Below, one piece after another: positions 4,507-53,430 of a stretch of DNA of 64,000 nucleotides (the first letter of the stretch is position 1; each line of letters begins with the position of its first letter). The position numbers were made by a program, and so were the translations under genes. Below the pieces are notes generated by a model. It did no database searches. It saw only the letters and a program-made list of their open reading frames with translations, and was not told where the DNA came from. Source of the DNA: Streptomyces capitiformicae (GTDB lineage: Bacteria; Actinomycetota; Actinomycetes; Streptomycetales; Streptomycetaceae); NCBI RefSeq assembly GCF_002214185.1, contig NZ_CP022161.1, forward strand, positions 8,687,486-8,751,485, read 5' to 3'.

Positions 4507-5471
4507 CGGACCCCGCCACCTCGCCTGCTTCCGGAGCTGTTTCCGGCCAGCCCGCCTCGGTCGTACGACTCGACGTGCCCGGTGCGAAAGAGGTGATCCA
4601 CCGGGACGTGGCGGCCAACGGCGCGCGCTTCCACATCGCCGAGAGCGGCGACGGGCCGCTGGTGCTGCTGCTGCACGGCTTCCCGCAGTTCTGGTGGACC
4701 TGGCGGCACCAGCTGGTCGCCCTAGCCGACGCGGGCTTCCGGGCCGTGGCCATGGATCTGAGAGGGGTCGGCGGCAGCGACCGCACGCCCCGGGGTTACG
4801 ACCCGGCCAACCTCGCCCTCGACATCACGGGCGTCGTACGGTCCCTCGGCGAGCCCGACGCCGCTCTGGTCGGCCACGACCTGGGCGGCTATCTGGCCTG
4901 GACGGCGGCCGTGATGCGCCCCAAGCTCGTACGGCGGCTCGCGGTCTCCTCGATGCCGCATCCGCGGCGCTGGCGCTCGGCGATGCTGTCGGACGTGAAG
5001 CAGACGGCCGCCGGGGCGTACATCTGGGGGTTCCAGCGGCCCTGGATCCCCGAGCGGCAACTCACCGCCGACGACGGCGCCCTGGTGGGCCGTCTGATCC
5101 GGGACTGGTCGGGGCCGCGGCTGCCCGACGACGAGGCCGTGGAGGCGTATCAGCGGGCGATGTGCATCCCCTCGACGGCGCACTGTTCGATCGAGCCGTA
5201 CCGGTGGATGGTGCGGTCCATGGCCCGCCCGGACGGCATCCAGTTCAACCGGCGCATGAAGCGGCCGGTGCGCGTGCCGACGCTCCATCTGCACGGTTCA
5301 CTCGACCCGGTGATGCGGACGCGCAGCGCGGCGGGGTCCGGGGAGTACGTCGAAGCGCCGTACCGCTGGCGGCTGTTCGACGGGCTCGGGCACTTCCCGC
5401 ACGAGGAGGACCCGGTCGCGTTCTCCGCCGAACTCATCAACTGGCTCAAGGATCCAGAGCCCGACCGGTAG
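4503..5471 (+). CDS. Alpha/beta hydrolase (epoxide hydrolase-like)
   Basis: A 322-residue alpha/beta hydrolase. It shows the oxyanion motif HGFPQFWW after strand 3, the nucleophile elbow VGHDLGGYLAW in which the nucleophile is Asp rather than Ser, a late acid in HGSLDPV, and the catalytic His in GLGHFPHEEDP. An Asp nucleophile with HGFP is typical of epoxide hydrolases and haloalkane dehalogenases, so a water-dependent epoxide or C-X hydrolase is the best guess; the substrate is unknown. ATG overlaps the stop of the holin-like gene, so the two are probably co-translated. Confidence 0.85.
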   Translation: MTDPATSPASGAVSGQPASVVRLDVPGAKEVIHRDVAANGARFHIAESGDGPLVLLLHGFPQFWWTWRHQLVALADAGFRAVAMDLRGVGGSDRTPRGYDPANLALDITGVVRSLGEPDAALVGHDLGGYLAWTAAVMRPKLVRRLAVSSMPHPRRWRSAMLSDVKQTAAGAYIWGFQRPWIPERQLTADDGALVGRLIRDWSGPRLPDDEAVEAYQRAMCIPSTAHCSIEPYRWMVRSMARPDGIQFNRRMKRPVRVPTLHLHGSLDPVMRTRSAAGSGEYVEAPYRWRLFDGLGHFPHEEDPVAFSAELINWLKDPEPDR

Positions 5472-7959: not shown

Positions 7960-8450
7960 GGGTGGCTCACGCCGGGGCGGGGCGGGGGCGTGGCAGGGGG
8001 CGCGCCGGTGCGAGGAGGACACACGGCGGCGTGCACGCCGGCGCGAGGAAGGGGCGCGGCGGCGTGCATGCCGGTGCGGGGAAGAGGCACGGCAGCGTGC
8101 GCGGCGGTGCGGGGAGGACACACGGCGGCGTGCACGCCGGCGCGGGCACGAGGTACGGCGGTCGGTGCGCCGGCGCGGGCACGAGGTACGGCGGTGCGAG
8201 GAAGAGGCACGGCGGCGTGCACGCCGGCGCGGGGACGAGGTACGGCGGTGTGCGCGCCGGCGCGGGCACGAGGTACGGCGGTCGGTGCGCCGGCGCGGGC
8301 ACGAGGTACGGCGGTGCGAGGAAGAGGCACGGCGGCGTGCACGCCGGCGCGGGGACGAGGTACGGCGGTGTGCGCGCTGGTGCGAGGAAGGGGCGCGGCG
8401 GTGTACATGCCGGCGCGGGGACGAGGCGCGGCGGGGCGCTCCGTGCGGCC
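7960..8450. repeat. GC-rich minisatellite, 30-bp subunits and a 120-bp higher-order period
   Basis: The whole gap between nth and the Nudix gene is built from variants of a roughly 30-bp unit containing GCACGAGGTACGGCGG and GTGCACGCCGGCGCGGG. A 120-bp superunit recurs: 8135-8257 and 8255-8377 are identical over 123 bases. Period 120 keeps every frame open, so several long spurious ORFs run through it. Read on the minus strand it would encode repeats such as TAVPRARAGAP and AAVPLPR, but I see no start, ribosome site or independent coding evidence. Confidence 0.9.
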
Positions 8451-41255: not shown

Positions 41256-41722
41256 ATGATGCGCACCACCGCCACTGCCCTGGTCGCCGCGCTCGCCGCT
41301 TCCGTCCTGACGATCCCCGCCGCGTCCGCCGCCACCAGGTCCTCGCAGCCCCCCGAGGACGACCTGCGCGACCGGGTGACCGCCGTGATGGAGACCGGGA
41401 CGGTCGGCGCCCTCGCCCGCTCGCCTCGCCCGCTCGCCTCGCCCGCTCGCCTCGCCCGCTCGCCTCGCCCGCTCGCCTCGCCCGCTCGCCTCGCCCGCTC
41501 GCCTCGCCCGCTCGCCTCGCCCGCACGGCCGGCAGCGCTCCGCCACCGCCGGTGCCGCCGACACCGCCCACCGGCGAGACCGTCCGCCCCGGCGACGAGT
41601 TCCGGATCGCCAGCGCCAGTAAGACGTTCGTCGCCACGGTGGTGCTGCAACTGGCCGGTGAGGGGAGGCTGTGGTGGACCGCTTCCAGCGCGGCGATGTG
41701 CCTGTCTTCCTGCTCTCGCTGA
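41256..41722 (+). pseudogene. Serine hydrolase (beta-lactamase/DD-carboxypeptidase family), broken by a tandem repeat
   Basis: The beginning is a good signal peptide (MMRTTATALVAALAASVLTI then PAASAA) and mature start (DDLRDRVTAVMETGTVGALA). After a 13-bp tandem repeat, another frame continues as GETVRPGDEFRIASASKTFV then ATVVLQLAGEGRLWW, where SASK is the SxxK nucleophile motif of class C beta-lactamase-like hydrolases. Homology stops after about 41690 and a stop follows at 41722, so the repeat disrupts the frame and about 300 residues are missing. Confidence 0.75.
41412..41524. repeat. 13-bp tandem repeat (about 8.5 copies) inside the broken serine hydrolase
   Basis: The unit CTCGCCTCGCCCG is repeated head-to-tail from 41420 to about 41523, preceded by a partial copy. 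Because 13 is not a multiple of 3, each gain or loss of a unit changes the reading frame downstream. Confidence 0.9.
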
Positions 41723-42102: not shown

Positions 42103-43083
42103 ATGACTGACCTTCTGTCTCCTTCGACCCCGCACCACTCCTCCTCTGCTGCGCACCCGGCCGATCTCAGCTTCGAACTGCTGGGCGAGGTCCGGGGCTG
42201 GCGCGACGGCATCGAGCTGCCGCTCGGCGCGCCCCGCCAACGGGCCCTGCTCGCCGTCCTGCTGCTGCGGGCCGGTTCCCCCGTGGGCCGCGACTACCTG
42301 ATCGACGGGATCTGGGGCGACTCCACTGTGCTGGACGGCGCCAACCTGGTGCAGGCGTATGTCTCCAAGCTGCGCAAGCTGTTCGAACCCGACCGGAGGC
42401 CGCGCACCGCCGGCGGCGTGCTCACCCGGGTCGGCGCCTCCTACCGGCTGTCCATCGGCCTCCAGCAGTGCGACCTCGGCCGGTTCGAGCAATCCGTGGC
42501 CGACGCCCGGGCGCTGTGGGACGCCGGGCAGCTCGACGCCGCCGAACGGACCCTGGCGGCCGCCCTGTCGCAGTGGCCCGGCCCCGCGCTCACCGGAGTG
42601 ACCGGCCCGCTGCTCGATGTCGAACGCACCAGGCTCGCGGAGCTGCGGCTGGCGGTCGTCGAGGAGCACACCGAGCTCGCGCTCGAACTCGGTGGCCATG
42701 CCCGGCTGGTGCCGCACCTGCTCGTCCTCACCGCCGAACACCCGTACCGCGAGCGGCTCTGGGCGCTGCTCATGGCCGCGCTCTACCGCGGCAGCCGACA
42801 GGCCGACGCACTGGCCGCCTACCAGCGGGCCCGGCACGCTCTGATGGAGAACCTGGGCCTGCTGCCCGGCCCCGAACTGCGCGGGGTCGAGGAGGCGATC
42901 CTGGCGCGGCGCCCCGATCCGTTCGCCCGCGTCACCACCCCGGCCGAAGGCCCGGGCAGGGCTACGGAACCTCGCCACCCCCACCTGACCCTGGTGGGCC
43001 CCGCCCCGCTCGCCACCCCGTCGGCACCGCACTCCACGACCCGGGGCCCCGGGAGCGCCGGGGCGACCCGCCTGGCCCGCTGA
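42103..43083 (+). CDS. SARP-family transcriptional activator (pathway-specific)
   Basis: A 326-residue Streptomyces antibiotic regulatory protein. An OmpR-like winged helix fills residues about 22-115 (ELLGEVRGWRDGIELPLGAP, QRALLAVLLLRAGSPVGRD, DGANLVQAYVSKLRKLFEP). A bacterial transcriptional activator (BTAD) domain follows to about 275 (ARALWDAGQLDAAERTLAAA, ALLMAALYRGSRQADALAAY, ENLGLLPGPELRGVE). A Pro/Thr-rich tail without ATPase domain makes it a small SARP. ATG follows GGAGG. It is the first gene of the NRPS cluster and probably activates the promoters at 45993 and 47373. Confidence 0.93.
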   Translation: MTDLLSPSTPHHSSSAAHPADLSFELLGEVRGWRDGIELPLGAPRQRALLAVLLLRAGSPVGRDYLIDGIWGDSTVLDGANLVQAYVSKLRKLFEPDRRPRTAGGVLTRVGASYRLSIGLQQCDLGRFEQSVADARALWDAGQLDAAERTLAAALSQWPGPALTGVTGPLLDVERTRLAELRLAVVEEHTELALELGGHARLVPHLLVLTAEHPYRERLWALLMAALYRGSRQADALAAYQRARHALMENLGLLPGPELRGVEEAILARRPDPFARVTTPAEGPGRATEPRHPHLTLVGPAPLATPSAPHSTTRGPGSAGATRLAR

Positions 43084-43206: not shown

Positions 43207-45939
43207 ATGACAGTCCAGTCCGACACGGCCCCGCCGGACGATCCCCGTCCCGCCACCGAACCCGAGGCCGCCGCGGAGGCCACGGCCGACAGCGGCACAG
43301 CCGGGAGCGACGGCGACGAGGGCAAGCCCGCGCTCCCCGTCCGGCGCAGACGCCTGCGGCGGATCCTCGTCCGTACCGCGGTCGTCCTCACCGCCCTGGT
43401 GCTGCTGGTGGCCGGCAGCGTATTCGGGTACGCGTACTGGACCGTCCGGCAGTCGCTGCCGCAGTTGTCCGGCAGCACCAGCGTGCCCGGTCTGGCGGGC
43501 GAGGCCCGGATCGTCAGGGATGGCTCCGGCATCCCGCAGATCTACGCCGGCACCGCGCACGACCTGTTCATGGCCCAGGGGTACGCCATGGCCCAGGACC
43601 GGTTCTGGCAGATGGACACCCAACGGCACGTCACTTCGGGCCGGCTCGCCGAGATGTTCGGCCCGAGCCAGGTACAGACCGACAAGGTGGCGCGCACCTT
43701 CGGCTGGTACCGGGTGGCCGAGCAGGAGGTCACCCTGCTGTCGCCGCAGACCCGGGCGTACCTTCGGGCCTTCTCCGACGGAGTGAACGCCTACCTCGCC
43801 CAGAACGAGGGGGCCGAGCTGTCGGTGGAGTACCCGGTGCTCGGCTTCGTCTCCGGCGACTACCGGCCGGAGCCGTGGACCCCGGCCGATTCGGTGTCCT
43901 GGCTGAAGACCATGGCCTGGAACCTCAACACCGGCATGATCGACCAGTTCCAGCACGCGATGCTGGCGGCCCGGCTGCCCGCCGGTGCGGCCGGCGACCT
44001 CTTCCCCGGCTACGACTACACGCGCTGGTCGCCGATCGTCCCCGACCGCGTACCAGGGGCCGCGTCCGGCACGGCGGCGACCCAGGCCTCGGCCCCCGCT
44101 GCCTCGGCCCCCGCTCCCTCGACGGCAGCTGCCGGAGCGCCGCCCGGCGTTTCCGCCGAGGCCGCTCCCGCGCTGGCCGACAGCGCGCGGGTACGCGATG
44201 TGCTGGCCGCAGTTCTCGGCCCGCAGGGCATCGGCATCGGCTCCAACTCCTGGGTGGTGGCGGGCAGTCGTACCACCACGGGCAAGCCGCTGCTGGAGAA
44301 CGACCCGCACCTGGCCCCCTCGCTACCGGGCATCTGGTACCAGGTCGGACTGCACTGCACCCGGACCGGCCCCGACTGCCCGTACGACGTCACCGGCCTC
44401 ACCTTCGCCGGCATGCCGGGCGTGGTGCTCGGCCACAACGCCCATATCTCCTGGGGCTTCACAGACCTGGGCGCCGCCGACTCCGACCTGTTCGTGGAGA
44501 AGATCAGCGGGTCCACCTACGAACACCGGGGGAAGCAGAAGCCCCTGGGTGTCCGTAAGGAGCGGATCGAAGTGGCCGGGGCCCCCGCCGTCGACATCAC
44601 CGTCCGCTCGACCCTGCACGGCCCGCTGATCTCCGACGTGCTCAAGTCGGCCGACGAGGTGGCGGACGAGGGCAAGGAGCCCGGCGTCCCACCACGCGGC
44701 CCGCGGGACGACTACGCGGTCGCCATGCAGTGGACCGCACTCGACCCCGCGCCCACCATGGACGCCCTCTTCGCCCTGAACCGGGCCGAGAACTGGGACG
44801 AGTTCCGAGCGGCCGCCGAGGTCTTCGCCTCACCGGTGCAGAACATGATCTACGCGGACACGGCCGGCAACATCGGTTACCAGACGCCGGGCCGCATACC
44901 CGTCCGCAAGGCGGGCGACAGTCGCCACCCGGTGCCGGGCTGGACCGGGGCCTACGACTGGACCGGGTACCTTCCCTTCGACAAACTGCCCACGAGCTTC
45001 AATCCGCCGGAGGGCTACATCGTCACCGCCAACAACGCGGTGGTCGGGCCCGAGTACCCGCACCTGATCGGCAGCAACTGGGGCACCGGCTACCGCAGCC
45101 GGCGGATCGCCCAACTCATCGAGCAGGGCGGCAGGCTGGATGTCGCGGCGATGGAGCGGATCACTCAGGACAGCTGGAACGGCAACGCCGCCAACCTGGT
45201 GCCGGCGCTGCTCAGGACCGAGGTCGGCGACGACACCGAACCCGCCCAGGACCTGCTGCGCGGCTGGGACTTCACCCAGGGCGCCGACTCGGCACCGGCC
45301 GCCTACTTCAACTCGGTGTGGCGCGCACTGCTGAAGAACGCGTTCACCGACCGGCTGTCCCGGGCCGGCGTCAAGAGGTACGCCTACCCGGACGGCGGGG
45401 GCCGCTGGTTCGATGTGGTGCGCGGCCTGCTCGACGAGCCGGACAGCATCTGGTGGACCAGCGCCACCGACCCTTCCGTGCGCGGCCGGGACGCGATGTT
45501 GCGCGAGTCGATGGAGCAGGCCGCCGGCGACCTGCGGCGGCGCCTCGGCGACGATCCTCGGAAGTGGCGTTGGGGCGCCCTGCACACCCTGACGCTGGAG
45601 AACCCGACCTTGGGCACCGGCGGCCCGGCCCCGCTGCGGTGGCTGCTGAACGCCGACCCGGTCGAGGTCGGCGGCGGCACGGACTCTGTGCTGGCCAATG
45701 GCTGGGTCCCGCAGAAGGGGTTTGAGGTGATCTGGGTGCCCTCCATGCGGATGGTGGTGGACCTGGGGGACTTCGAGCGCTCCCGCTGGGTCAACCTGAC
45801 CGGCGCGTCCGGCCACACCGGTGCGGACACCTACACCGACCAGGTCGGCCTTTGGGCCGAGGGCGGCAGTCTGCCCTGGCCGTACGGACCGCAAGAGGTG
45901 GACGCGGCGGCCCGCGATCGGCTGCGTCTCACTCCCTGA
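43207..45939 (+). CDS. Membrane-anchored penicillin acylase-family (Ntn) deacylase
   Basis: A 910-residue Ntn hydrolase. A charged N-terminus and RRRRLRR precede one transmembrane helix (about 55-77), placing the enzyme outside the membrane. The alpha chain (EARIVRDGSGIPQIYAGTAH, GYAMAQDRFWQMD) is joined by an Ala/Ser/Pro-rich spacer to the beta chain, whose N-terminal nucleophile is S346 in IGIG-SNSWVVAG after autocleavage; LLENDPHLAPSLPGIWYQ follows. Relatives remove fatty acyl chains from peptides, such as PvdQ in pyoverdine and the telomycin deacylase. With a FAAL-loaded NRPS in the same cluster, lipid removal after export is the likely role. It lies 123 bases after the SARP gene, probably one transcript. 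Confidence 0.9.
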   Translation: MTVQSDTAPPDDPRPATEPEAAAEATADSGTAGSDGDEGKPALPVRRRRLRRILVRTAVVLTALVLLVAGSVFGYAYWTVRQSLPQLSGSTSVPGLAGEARIVRDGSGIPQIYAGTAHDLFMAQGYAMAQDRFWQMDTQRHVTSGRLAEMFGPSQVQTDKVARTFGWYRVAEQEVTLLSPQTRAYLRAFSDGVNAYLAQNEGAELSVEYPVLGFVSGDYRPEPWTPADSVSWLKTMAWNLNTGMIDQFQHAMLAARLPAGAAGDLFPGYDYTRWSPIVPDRVPGAASGTAATQASAPAASAPAPSTAAAGAPPGVSAEAAPALADSARVRDVLAAVLGPQGIGIGSNSWVVAGSRTTTGKPLLENDPHLAPSLPGIWYQVGLHCTRTGPDCPYDVTGLTFAGMPGVVLGHNAHISWGFTDLGAADSDLFVEKISGSTYEHRGKQKPLGVRKERIEVAGAPAVDITVRSTLHGPLISDVLKSADEVADEGKEPGVPPRGPRDDYAVAMQWTALDPAPTMDALFALNRAENWDEFRAAAEVFASPVQNMIYADTAGNIGYQTPGRIPVRKAGDSRHPVPGWTGAYDWTGYLPFDKLPTSFNPPEGYIVTANNAVVGPEYPHLIGSNWGTGYRSRRIAQLIEQGGRLDVAAMERITQDSWNGNAANLVPALLRTEVGDDTEPAQDLLRGWDFTQGADSAPAAYFNSVWRALLKNAFTDRLSRAGVKRYAYPDGGGRWFDVVRGLLDEPDSIWWTSATDPSVRGRDAMLRESMEQAAGDLRRRLGDDPRKWRWGALHTLTLENPTLGTGGPAPLRWLLNADPVEVGGGTDSVLANGWVPQKGFEVIWVPSMRMVVDLGDFERSRWVNLTGASGHTGADTYTDQVGLWAEGGSLPWPYGPQEVDAAARDRLRLTP

Positions 45940-46270
45940 ACCGCCCTTTCCGCCAGCGGTTGCAGGTCTTCCGATGGGGCTCCCTGCCGGTGTTCAGCAG
46001 GCTTCCAGGGGAGCTTCAGTCGGGGGTCAGCCGGGCCTCAGTCCGGCGCAGACGGGCCGGCAGCCGGGCACCGGCGCGTGACCGGGCGGCGGGCAGAGCG
46101 GCACCAACGGTCCGTCAGCGTGGGGCAACCGCGCGACAGGCGGCGGACGAAAACATGGTCCCGCCAGTCGCCCTGGGCGTCCCGCAAGGAGCTGAGGACA
46201 GCGGCAGCTCGACCGGGTCGTCTCGCGCTGACCGGCTGGCCCCCGACCGCTGAGAGAAAGGCTGGCACCC
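45940..46270. other. Intergenic region with the SARP-type repeats before the hydroxylase gene
   Basis: No gene is supported in 331 bases. The key content is the 11-bp phased repeat array at 45993-46043, described separately. The rest up to the hydroxylase start is an apparent untranslated leader of about 225 bases. Confidence 0.6.
45993..46043 (+). promoter_or_regulatory. Candidate SARP operator: five direct repeats at 11-bp spacing
   Basis: TTCAGCA (45993), TCCAGGG (46004), TTCAGTC (46015), GTCAGCC (46026) and CTCAGTC (46037) follow each other at exactly 11 bases, about one helical turn. Direct heptamers at 11-bp (or 22-bp) intervals are the known binding architecture of SARPs such as ActII-ORF4. 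The array lies upstream of the hydroxylase gene in the same cluster as a SARP gene. Confidence 0.72.
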
Positions 46271-47284
46271 GTGCCGGTATCACAGGACATCGACATAGAC
46301 ATTTCGGCCCCGGACCTGGTGCTCAGCGATGCCGAGGCCGCCGCCACCGAAGGGACCGCCGCACAGCTCTGCGGCAGACCGGAAGGGGACCTGGTCGACG
46401 AGCCGGCGTGGGTGGCCTCGGCCCGCGACCGCTGGGAGGAACTGCCGACCCGCCTGCGCCGGGCCCTGCGAGGCTTCCGTCGGGACCCCGGGCCGGGCGG
46501 CGCCCTGCTGGTGCGCGGACTGCCGGTCGATGGCCCCGCGCTCGGCGGCACCCCGCTGACCGACGGCTCGGTGCAGCGCACCGCCACCGTACCGGCGTCG
46601 CTGCTGCTGCTCGCCGCGTGCGGGCTCGGCGACCCCGCCGCCTTCCGGCCGGAGAAGAGCGGCGCGCTGGTGCAGGACGTCGTCCCGGTGCCCGGGCGCG
46701 AGGAATCCCAGGGCAACGCGGGCTCGGTACTGCTTACCTTCCACAACGAGAACGCCTTCCACCCGCACCGGCCGGACTTCGTCATGCTGCTCTGCCTGCG
46801 TGCCGATCCGGACGGGCTGGCCGGACTGCGCACCTCCTGCGTGCGTGAGGTCCTGCCGCTGATGGACGAGGGCACCCGGGCGGCGCTGCGACGGCCGGAG
46901 TACCGCACCGCGCCGCCGCCGTCGTTCGGTGCCGTCGACGGTTCCGCCGAGCCGCATCCGGTGCTCACCGGCGCGTACGAGGACCCGGACCTGCGGGTGG
47001 ACATGGCCGCCACCCAACCGCTCACCGAACGGGCCGCGGCCGCACTGGCCGCACTGGGGCTCCTTTTCGAACGCACCGCCCGGACTGCCCGGCTGGAGCC
47101 CGGCGACCTCGCCGTCGTCGACAACCGGATCACCGTGCACGGGCGCACGGCGTTCACTCCGCGCTTCGACGGCACCGACCGCTGGCTCCAGCGCACCTTC
47201 GTCCTCGCCGACCTGCGCCGCTCGCGCGCCCACCGGGCAGGCGACGGCTACGTACTGGCCGACCCGGACGGATATCGCGCCTGA
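46271..47284 (+). CDS. Fe(II)/2-oxoglutarate amino-acid hydroxylase (VioC/AsnO-like)
   Basis: A 337-residue oxygenase of the clavaminate synthase-like/TauD fold. The facial triad is H158-x-E160 in TFHNENAFHPH and H290 in NRITVHGR; the 2-oxoglutarate-binding Arg is R308 in WLQRTFV, 18 residues on. FVMLLCLRAD and the overall length match the VioC/AsnO group, which hydroxylates the beta carbon of free amino acids (Arg, Asn and others) for NRPS use. A hydroxylated residue is therefore expected in the product, but the amino acid cannot be named. GTG start at 46271, preceded by GAGAGAAAGG. Confidence 0.87.
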   Translation: MPVSQDIDIDISAPDLVLSDAEAAATEGTAAQLCGRPEGDLVDEPAWVASARDRWEELPTRLRRALRGFRRDPGPGGALLVRGLPVDGPALGGTPLTDGSVQRTATVPASLLLLAACGLGDPAAFRPEKSGALVQDVVPVPGREESQGNAGSVLLTFHNENAFHPHRPDFVMLLCLRADPDGLAGLRTSCVREVLPLMDEGTRAALRRPEYRTAPPPSFGAVDGSAEPHPVLTGAYEDPDLRVDMAATQPLTERAAAALAALGLLFERTARTARLEPGDLAVVDNRITVHGRTAFTPRFDGTDRWLQRTFVLADLRRSRAHRAGDGYVLADPDGYRA

Positions 47285-47372
47285 TTCCGCCAGCCGCGCG
47301 AGGCGACGCCGTCAAGGTCCGAAGGCCCCGGCGGGCACGGTGGATTGAGCCGAGGGCGGGGAACGGCCGACG

Positions 47373-47401
47373 TTCAGTGAGCTGTCAGTGAGACCTCAGC
47401 C
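47373..47401 (+). promoter_or_regulatory. Candidate SARP operator: three direct repeats at 11-bp spacing
   Basis: TTCAGTG (47373), GTCAGTG (47384) and CTCAGCC (47395) are spaced exactly 11 bases apart, 149 bases before the MbtH start. The same element and phasing occur at 45993-46043, supporting a shared activator for the hydroxylase gene and the mbtH-NRPS operon. Confidence 0.72.
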
Positions 47402-47549
47402 CGGCGCCGGTTCGCCGCCCGGAAACCGCCGGAAGGGCATCCGCGCCCGCTCAGGGCGGGCCAAGGGCGCGGTCAGGGCGGAACGACAGCATCGAAGACA
47501 TAACGGCGGGCCCGCCGGCCCCACCTCTGCATCGAATCGGAGCGCAGTG

Positions 47550-47774
47550 ATGAGTAACGAGGACACCACCGTCTACCAGGTCGTCGTCAACGACGAGGAG
47601 CAGTACTCGATCTGGCCGGCCGACCGCGAGCTGCCGGCCGGGTGGCGTGCTGAGGGCCCCCGCGCCGAGAAGGCGCAGTGCCTGGCCCACATCGACGAGG
47701 TCTGGACCGACATGCGGCCGCTGAGCCTGCGCGTGGCCATGGACCGGCAGGCCGCCGAGTCCGCTGCGGACTGA
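47550..47774 (+). CDS. MbtH-like protein
   Basis: A 74-residue MbtH-family protein that binds and stabilises adenylation domains. The signature is complete: [39 protein letters not shown]. The ATG is preceded by GGAG. The first NRPS begins 82 bases downstream, so this is the lead gene of the NRPS operon and probably serves the three A domains encoded after it. Confidence 0.95.

Positions 47775-47856: not shown

Positions 47857-53429
<5,573 letters not shown>

Positions 53430-53430
<1 letters not shown>

Follow-up and report, generated by a model that had tools for sequence, protein, structure and literature searches.

Long arrays of 11-bp heptamer repeats as predicted SARP operators at two promoters of a Streptomyces capitiformicae NRPS cluster

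The window analyzed here, a 64,000-nucleotide stretch of the Streptomyces capitiformicae genome, carries a biosynthetic cluster comprising a SARP gene, an acylase gene, a hydroxylase gene, and an NRPS operon that starts with an MbtH-like gene (Table 1). The regulator has the composition of a small SARP, i.e., an OmpR-type DNA-binding domain followed by BTAD and no further domain, and its residues 19 to 271 align with AfsR of structure 8hvr (E 8.3e-44). A second hydroxylase of the same family as the one in the cluster, 39% identical to it, is encoded less than 20 kb beyond the 3' end of the window (L117:8004-8885). Other tandem repeats in the window are a perfect 13-bp repeat of 8.8 copies at 41411-41524, which precedes the SARP gene by 0.6 kb in a disrupted-looking stretch that resembles a hydrolase by eye, a 27-bp repeat of 5.4 copies at 49927-50071 within the FAAL-NRPS reading frame, and a nested array of 33-, 66-, 87-, and 120-bp repeats at 7968-8438.

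Table 1. Genes and predicted promoter features of the cluster (window coordinates)
Feature	Position	Strand	Remarks
Small SARP, 326 aa	42103..43083	+	Pfam Trans_reg_C and BTAD; proposed cognate regulator
Penicillin-amidase-type acylase	43207..45939	+	PF01804, 773.7 bits; upstream of array 1
Array 1	45993..46146	+	About 14 in-register 11-bp units; after the acylase gene
-10-like hexamer AAACAT	46151..46156	+	8 bp past the last in-register heptamer position of array 1; aligned hexamers in L034, L035, and L036
Likely 3'-end remnant of an ACP-like ORF (RQLD...R stop)	46202..46231	+	Probable scar of the missing block
TauD/VioC-GntD-like Fe(II)/2-oxoglutarate hydroxylase	46271..47284	+	First gene after promoter 1 here
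Array 2	47373..47482	+	10 in-register 11-bp units; before the MbtH gene
-10-like hexamer CAGCAT	47487..47492	+	Exactly 8 bp past heptamer GTCAGGG (47472-47478)
MbtH-like protein	47550..47774	+	PF03621; first gene of the NRPS operon
FAAL-NRPS	47857..53430	+	Fatty-acid-AMP ligase and AA-adenylation models

An earlier note on this DNA had described eight TCAG-type heptamers spaced by 11 bp, five in one group and three in another, and a check of the sequence found all eight at the positions given. As it proposed, they form direct heptamers of the SARP type, one 11-bp turn apart, ahead of two transcription units and with a small SARP gene upstream. The five and three repeats are only the upstream ends, however, as the arrays really extend over about 14 and 10 units and span 110 to 154 bp. 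In array 1, the heptamers TTCAGCA (45993), TCCAGGG (46004), TTCAGTC (46015), GTCAGCC (46026), and CTCAGTC (46037) are followed by weaker units, including those at 46059, 46092, and 46114, and by a terminal CAG (46137) that lies 1 bp off register. Array 2 opens with TTCAGTG (47373), GTCAGTG (47384), and CTCAGCC (47395), continues through four degenerate rows (GCCGGTT, GCCCGGA, GCCGGAA, and ATCCGCG), and closes near the promoter with CTCAGGG (47450), CCAAGGG (47461), and GTCAGGG (47472). The exact sequence GTCAGSS is found at 46026, 46114, and 47472, and a relaxed form of it at the other units. Both arrays thus present direct heptamers on one strand with an 11-bp period, which characterizes SARP operators, but depart from the usual repeat number of two or three, which is not a defining property.

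A scan of both strands of the window for TCAG runs of three at periods of 8 to 14, which the earlier note had suggested for the rest of the cluster, returned only these two arrays, both with period 11. The note had also raised the possibility that the phased motif is common at random places in the genome. Across the 10,989,391-bp genome (one contig), exact TCAG repeated three times at 11 bp gave 15 matches at nine places, compared to four matches for a reversed-pattern control, and is therefore rare. Two of the nine places are arrays 1 and 2, located 1.4 kb apart and beside the SARP gene, and at least three others (1627944, 1752143, and 3690218) resemble ordinary near-identical tandem repeats. 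At another of the nine, 9533173 (L121:10173-10215), three TCAG heptamers are followed by CAGCGT at SARP spacing (+15); this site is divergent from an 892-aa ORF with BTAD, i.e., another SARP gene, precedes an ORF whose product, judged by eye, seems to be secreted, and is likely an ordinary SARP site. At 1912193 (L028:1500-1543), four in-register TCAG-type units reach 28.9 bits, with no -10-like hexamer at +15.

A search with the hydroxylase identified the same cluster (SARP, acylase, hydroxylase, MbtH, and FAAL-NRPS) in Streptomyces sp. NBC_00083 (L034), Kitasatospora sp. A2-31 (L035), and S. spiroverticillatus (L036), with hydroxylases 84 to 87% identical. All three carry one array after the acylase gene and another before the MbtH gene. 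The comparison set consisted of 80 loci out of 203 relatives, L034 to L036 included, and no such array was seen in the DNA covered for its 77 other loci, L091 having an isolated TCAG triple. A more distant cluster in genome G087 (SARP identity of 62 to 65%) has no array before MbtH and a single 11-unit array of 25.5 bits before a KAS gene, several of whose middle units depart from the consensus. Across the relatives, array lengths range from 10 to 24 units, the 24-unit array being that of S. spiroverticillatus. An orthologue of the 42103 SARP, the proposed cognate regulator, is present in every one of these relatives with arrays (L034, L035, L036, and G087).

We also searched for the SARP in overlapping draws of 295 genomes of the genus (E 1e-60), 394 of the family (E 1e-55), and 394 of the class (E 1e-55). 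Beyond its own genome, only G304, G575, G087, G220, and G333 encode a SARP above 60% identity; the KAS gene in G304 is 100% identical to that of L034, and the position in G575 fits L035. KAS homologues were detected in 61 of 392 genus genomes (E 1e-60). Among 30 KAS-homologue loci that were scanned, the L034 cluster and G087 were the two with an array of at least 18 bits, a 4-unit site was present at two more, and 26 had neither. The 4-unit sites, found in G220 and G333 at the orthologous KAS promoter, lie 8 bp before a -10-like GATCAT and score 15.6 bits, no better than chance by score, since array-less KAS-homologue loci reach 15.9 bits. A profile scan found no array before MbtH in G220. No long array was found within flanks of about 1.5 kb in 61 SARP loci (best score of 16.3 bits), which is a weak negative, as the arrays of L010, L154, and L155 lie beyond such a flank.

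The earlier note had assigned array 1 to a hydroxylase unit, and the hydroxylase gene is indeed the first after the array in this strain. In all three full-cluster relatives, however, a KAS-led block precedes it, the order after array 1 being a KAS III-like gene, an AMP-ligase, a PLP decarboxylase, a short ACP-like ORF, and the hydroxylase. The ACP-like ORF was read by eye in L034, without a family search, and its end aligns in L035 and L036. The KAS-ligase-decarboxylase-ACP block is missing from the cluster analyzed here, with the leader conserved to about position 46190. KAS was absent from the genome at E 1e-60, and neither the ligase nor the decarboxylase was found in the window or the 40 kb 3' of it. 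A tryptophan-dioxygenase-like gene that precedes array 2 in the relatives was likewise not found in the window plus 40 kb on its 3' side, the interval ahead of array 2 here being 47285-47372. As read from these alignments, the KAS-led block is lost here by a deletion that spared the promoter, and both promoters were kept through the gene losses. Since the block and the tryptophan-dioxygenase-like gene are missing, the product of this strain's cluster probably differs from that of the relatives.

To score the arrays, we used an 11-column unit profile in a leave-one-species-out scheme. All eight arrays of the four clusters scored between 49.5 and 80.1 bits (300 letter shuffles each gave at most 17.5), figures to be read with training arrays that we registered ourselves and with homology left in place by the omission of a species. 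Array 1 reached 58.3 bits (shuffle maximum of 15.8) and array 2, scored from 47362, 49.5 bits (shuffle maximum of 17.5); set to periods of 9, 10, 12, or 13, the profile gave at most 12.7 bits. The full profile had no match of at least 20 bits on either strand of the 77 other loci (2,787,330 bases). Within the window, just two other matches reached 18 bits, both of them on a tandem repeat near 16.5 kb, with scores of 20.3 and 19.2 bits. At the same threshold, no array was detected ahead of the SARP gene, ahead of the acylase gene, or in the 40 kb 3' of the window.

Autocorrelation at lag 11 was the highest among lags 8 to 14 in all eight regions, with z values of 1.8 to 6.9 against dinucleotide shuffles, the signal being weak at the mbtH promoter of the window (2.3), at its array 1 (2.4), and at array 1 of L034 (1.8). 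In a motif-free sliding test at lag 11, the two arrays ranked first and second within the window; position 5042, which holds no array, has a z of 6.8. Ten sites were compared by this test with a background of 1,383,578 windows from the 77 loci. Five of them (both arrays of the window, array 1 of L034, and both arrays of L035) lay above every background window, and three (L034 mbtH, L036 array 1, and L119) were exceeded by 2 to 6 windows per million. The weakest, L036 mbtH and L121, were exceeded by fractions of 3.4e-4 and 4.1e-4 and do not stand out strongly. When TCAG-like words across the entire intergenic regions were tested for concentration in one phase, two of the eight regions showed no significant effect (p = 0.143 at mbtH in the window and p = 0.263 at mbtH in L035), probably because out-of-phase TCAG-like words also occur.

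Conservation within the arrays was then compared between heptamer cores and spacers. Of the 113 units, 91% have C at position 3 and 94% have G at position 5. Setting aside three units at the start and two at the end of every array leaves 74 central units; 63 of these keep C-x-G in register, against no more than 22 for any other phase, and 38 keep YCRG, against no more than 7. Adjacent units match at 0.56 to 0.77 in their cores and at 0.39 to 0.51 in their spacers; spacers match at 0.37 to 0.45 across all unit pairs, and a value of about 0.4 is estimated from spacer composition. Given that recent tandem duplication would have made the spacers alike too, the heptamer core looks constrained. GC-biased decay could explain part of the central T-to-C and A-to-G changes. 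A nonfunctional minisatellite is thus a very improbable account of the arrays, even in a genome that holds other short tandem repeats, since it predicts neither the preference for cores over spacers nor the retention of arrays at both promoters in four clusters, one of which has lost surrounding genes.

A register of heptamers ending 8 bp before the -10 element is the textbook SARP geometry. The repeats that the earlier note listed as last do not adjoin a -10; the promoter-proximal ones are those at 47450, 47461, and 47472 in array 2 and from 46114 to 46136 in array 1. With putative -10 hexamers placed from alignment and register, the 3'-most heptamer falls exactly 8 bp before the -10 in array 2, and does so by register only in array 1. 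The mbtH-promoter hexamer of the window recurs in L035 and L036 and reads AAGGAT in L034. At all nine promoters (9/9, homologous within each promoter family), the hexamer at +15 of the last unit has A as its second and T as its sixth base, albeit without T at position 1, and CAGGCT of L034 is weak. A consensus scan of 45800-47700 yielded no sigma-70 -35/-10 pair.

The distances from the first TCAG pair to the -10 are 113, 146, 157, 146, 135, 146, 190, 278, and 124 bp, i.e., seven different lengths, yet all nine equal 3 modulo 11. A distance that is constant modulo 11 despite differing lengths implies indels of whole units, so that the arrays appear to have changed in length solely by whole 11-bp units. 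The intervals between distal and proximal heptamers are 99, 132, 143, and 132 bp at the mbtH promoters (9, 12, 13, and 12 units) and 132, 121, 154, and 253 bp at the array 1 promoters (12, 11, 14, and 23 units). Expressed at 10.5 bp per turn, the same spacings amount to 9.43, 12.57, 13.62, 12.57, 12.57, 11.52, 14.67, and 24.10 turns; being multiples of 11 and not of 10.5, they point to conservation of an 11-bp lattice rather than of a helix face. This speaks against two separate operators, one distal and one proximal, joined by a DNA loop with their spacing held on one helix face. Such an arrangement would suit array 2, with its exact TCAG units at both ends and weak ones between, but it has no need for in-register central units, and we consider it unlikely.

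Several described systems share parts of this architecture. PapR2 recognizes the heptamer consensus GTCAGSS and also binds the redP/redQ promoters, and its sites resemble the arrays in their TCAG core, 4-bp spacers, and location ahead of biosynthetic genes (PMC7040171), whereas the arrays here run to 10 and about 14 units over 110 to 154 bp. The AfsR complex (cryo-EM, 8hvr) has a pair of SARP protomers next to one another on two 11-bp repeats; the protomers, which are monomers in solution, contact each other, sigma region 4, and the alphaCTD, and sigma region 4 rests on them instead of a -35 (PMC10936776). The afs box likewise has 11-bp direct repeats, a 3' repeat 8 bp from the -10, a poor -35, and a homologous SARP domain (PMC10936776), but it comprises two repeats with another heptamer and is bound by a large SARP, unlike the small one here. 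OtcR sites of the oxytetracycline cluster show the same period and the same 8-bp distance with two or three repeats (PMC4393881). PimR monomers bind the pimM promoter cooperatively, and the heptamers of the main operator have 4-nt spacers as well; this system differs in having three heptamers and, in addition, a second operator with two, in its CGGCAAG consensus, and in its lack of overlap with the -35 (PMC5930380). In the same report, expression rose to 470% when the promoter carried two triplets and only to 140% with one extra (fourth) heptamer, and the authors regard three as the optimum (PMC5930380).

The SARP encoded at 42103 is not the only conceivable ligand, as the genome has 18 BTAD matches and the SARP at 9.53 Mb adjoins a 3-unit TCAG site. 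PhoP, another OmpR-type regulator, binds PHO boxes, which are 11-bp head-to-tail repeats of variable unit number and can be complex (PMC4415409). However, the PHO box core GTTCACC (PMC7040171), which the arrays lack, has C where 94% of the 113 units have G, and the arrays accompany an orthologue of the 42103 SARP in all five clusters. There is therefore little chance that PhoP, or a BTAD protein other than the 42103 SARP, is the intended regulator.

Taken together, we predict that the arrays serve as operators for the SARP of their own cluster and have been lengthened into a lattice on which many protomers may assemble cooperatively, a reading to which we assign a probability of about three in four. 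Operator identity is well supported. The sequences show the repeats, their register, the -10 spacing, the conservation, and the cognate gene; the extended lattice, along with binding, activation, and occupation of the central units, we infer. SARP protomers would bind head-to-tail, one per 11-bp unit, and the two at the 3' end, 8 bp before the -10, would bring in RNA polymerase in the manner of the AfsR complex, replacing the missing -35. The operators would have been lengthened to 10 to 14 units here and 10 to 24 in the relatives, with exact TCAG units upstream (in array 2 also near the promoter) and degenerate C-x-G units between them. On a direct repeat, each protomer would present the same face to the next, and such contacts would be open-ended, so that the array most likely fills cooperatively, which may sharpen or strengthen activation. 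A more speculative extension, which we consider less likely than not, is that the SARP forms an open-ended head-to-tail filament of 10 to 24 protomers, nucleated at the strong units and reaching RNA polymerase; gain or loss of whole 11-bp units might then tune the promoter, so that array length would set the activation of the cluster like a dial or a threshold.

Alternatively, the arrays could be ordinary SARP operators in which only the two or three units closest to the -10 are functional and the upstream units are passive slippage copies, a serious contender although we judge it the less probable of the two. Known sites have two or three heptamers according to a SARP review (PMC10972967), slippage alone would yield whole-unit indels, and G220 and G333 have only the 4-unit KAS-promoter site, which the profile alone places at chance level. 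On the other hand, each of the eight arrays has exact TCAG units at its upstream end, where nothing would require passive copies to be retained, and the cores are more conserved than the spacers. In the literature searched, consisting largely of papers outside subscription journals and partly of incomplete texts, we found no natural SARP operator longer than two or three repeats. The heptamer and its 11-bp spacing are already known; the length of the arrays and their evolution by whole units are, to us, new.

SARPs are standard switches of antibiotic clusters, and the usual picture has two or three protomers bound to as many repeats. A natural series of 10 to 24 units in strict register, occurring in several species, offers material on which SARP polymerization on DNA can be tested, and it also bears on how unit number relates to output and on what holds promoter register in evolution. 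In addition, the arrays mark two operons that the SARP should switch on, which would be useful for waking a cryptic cluster.
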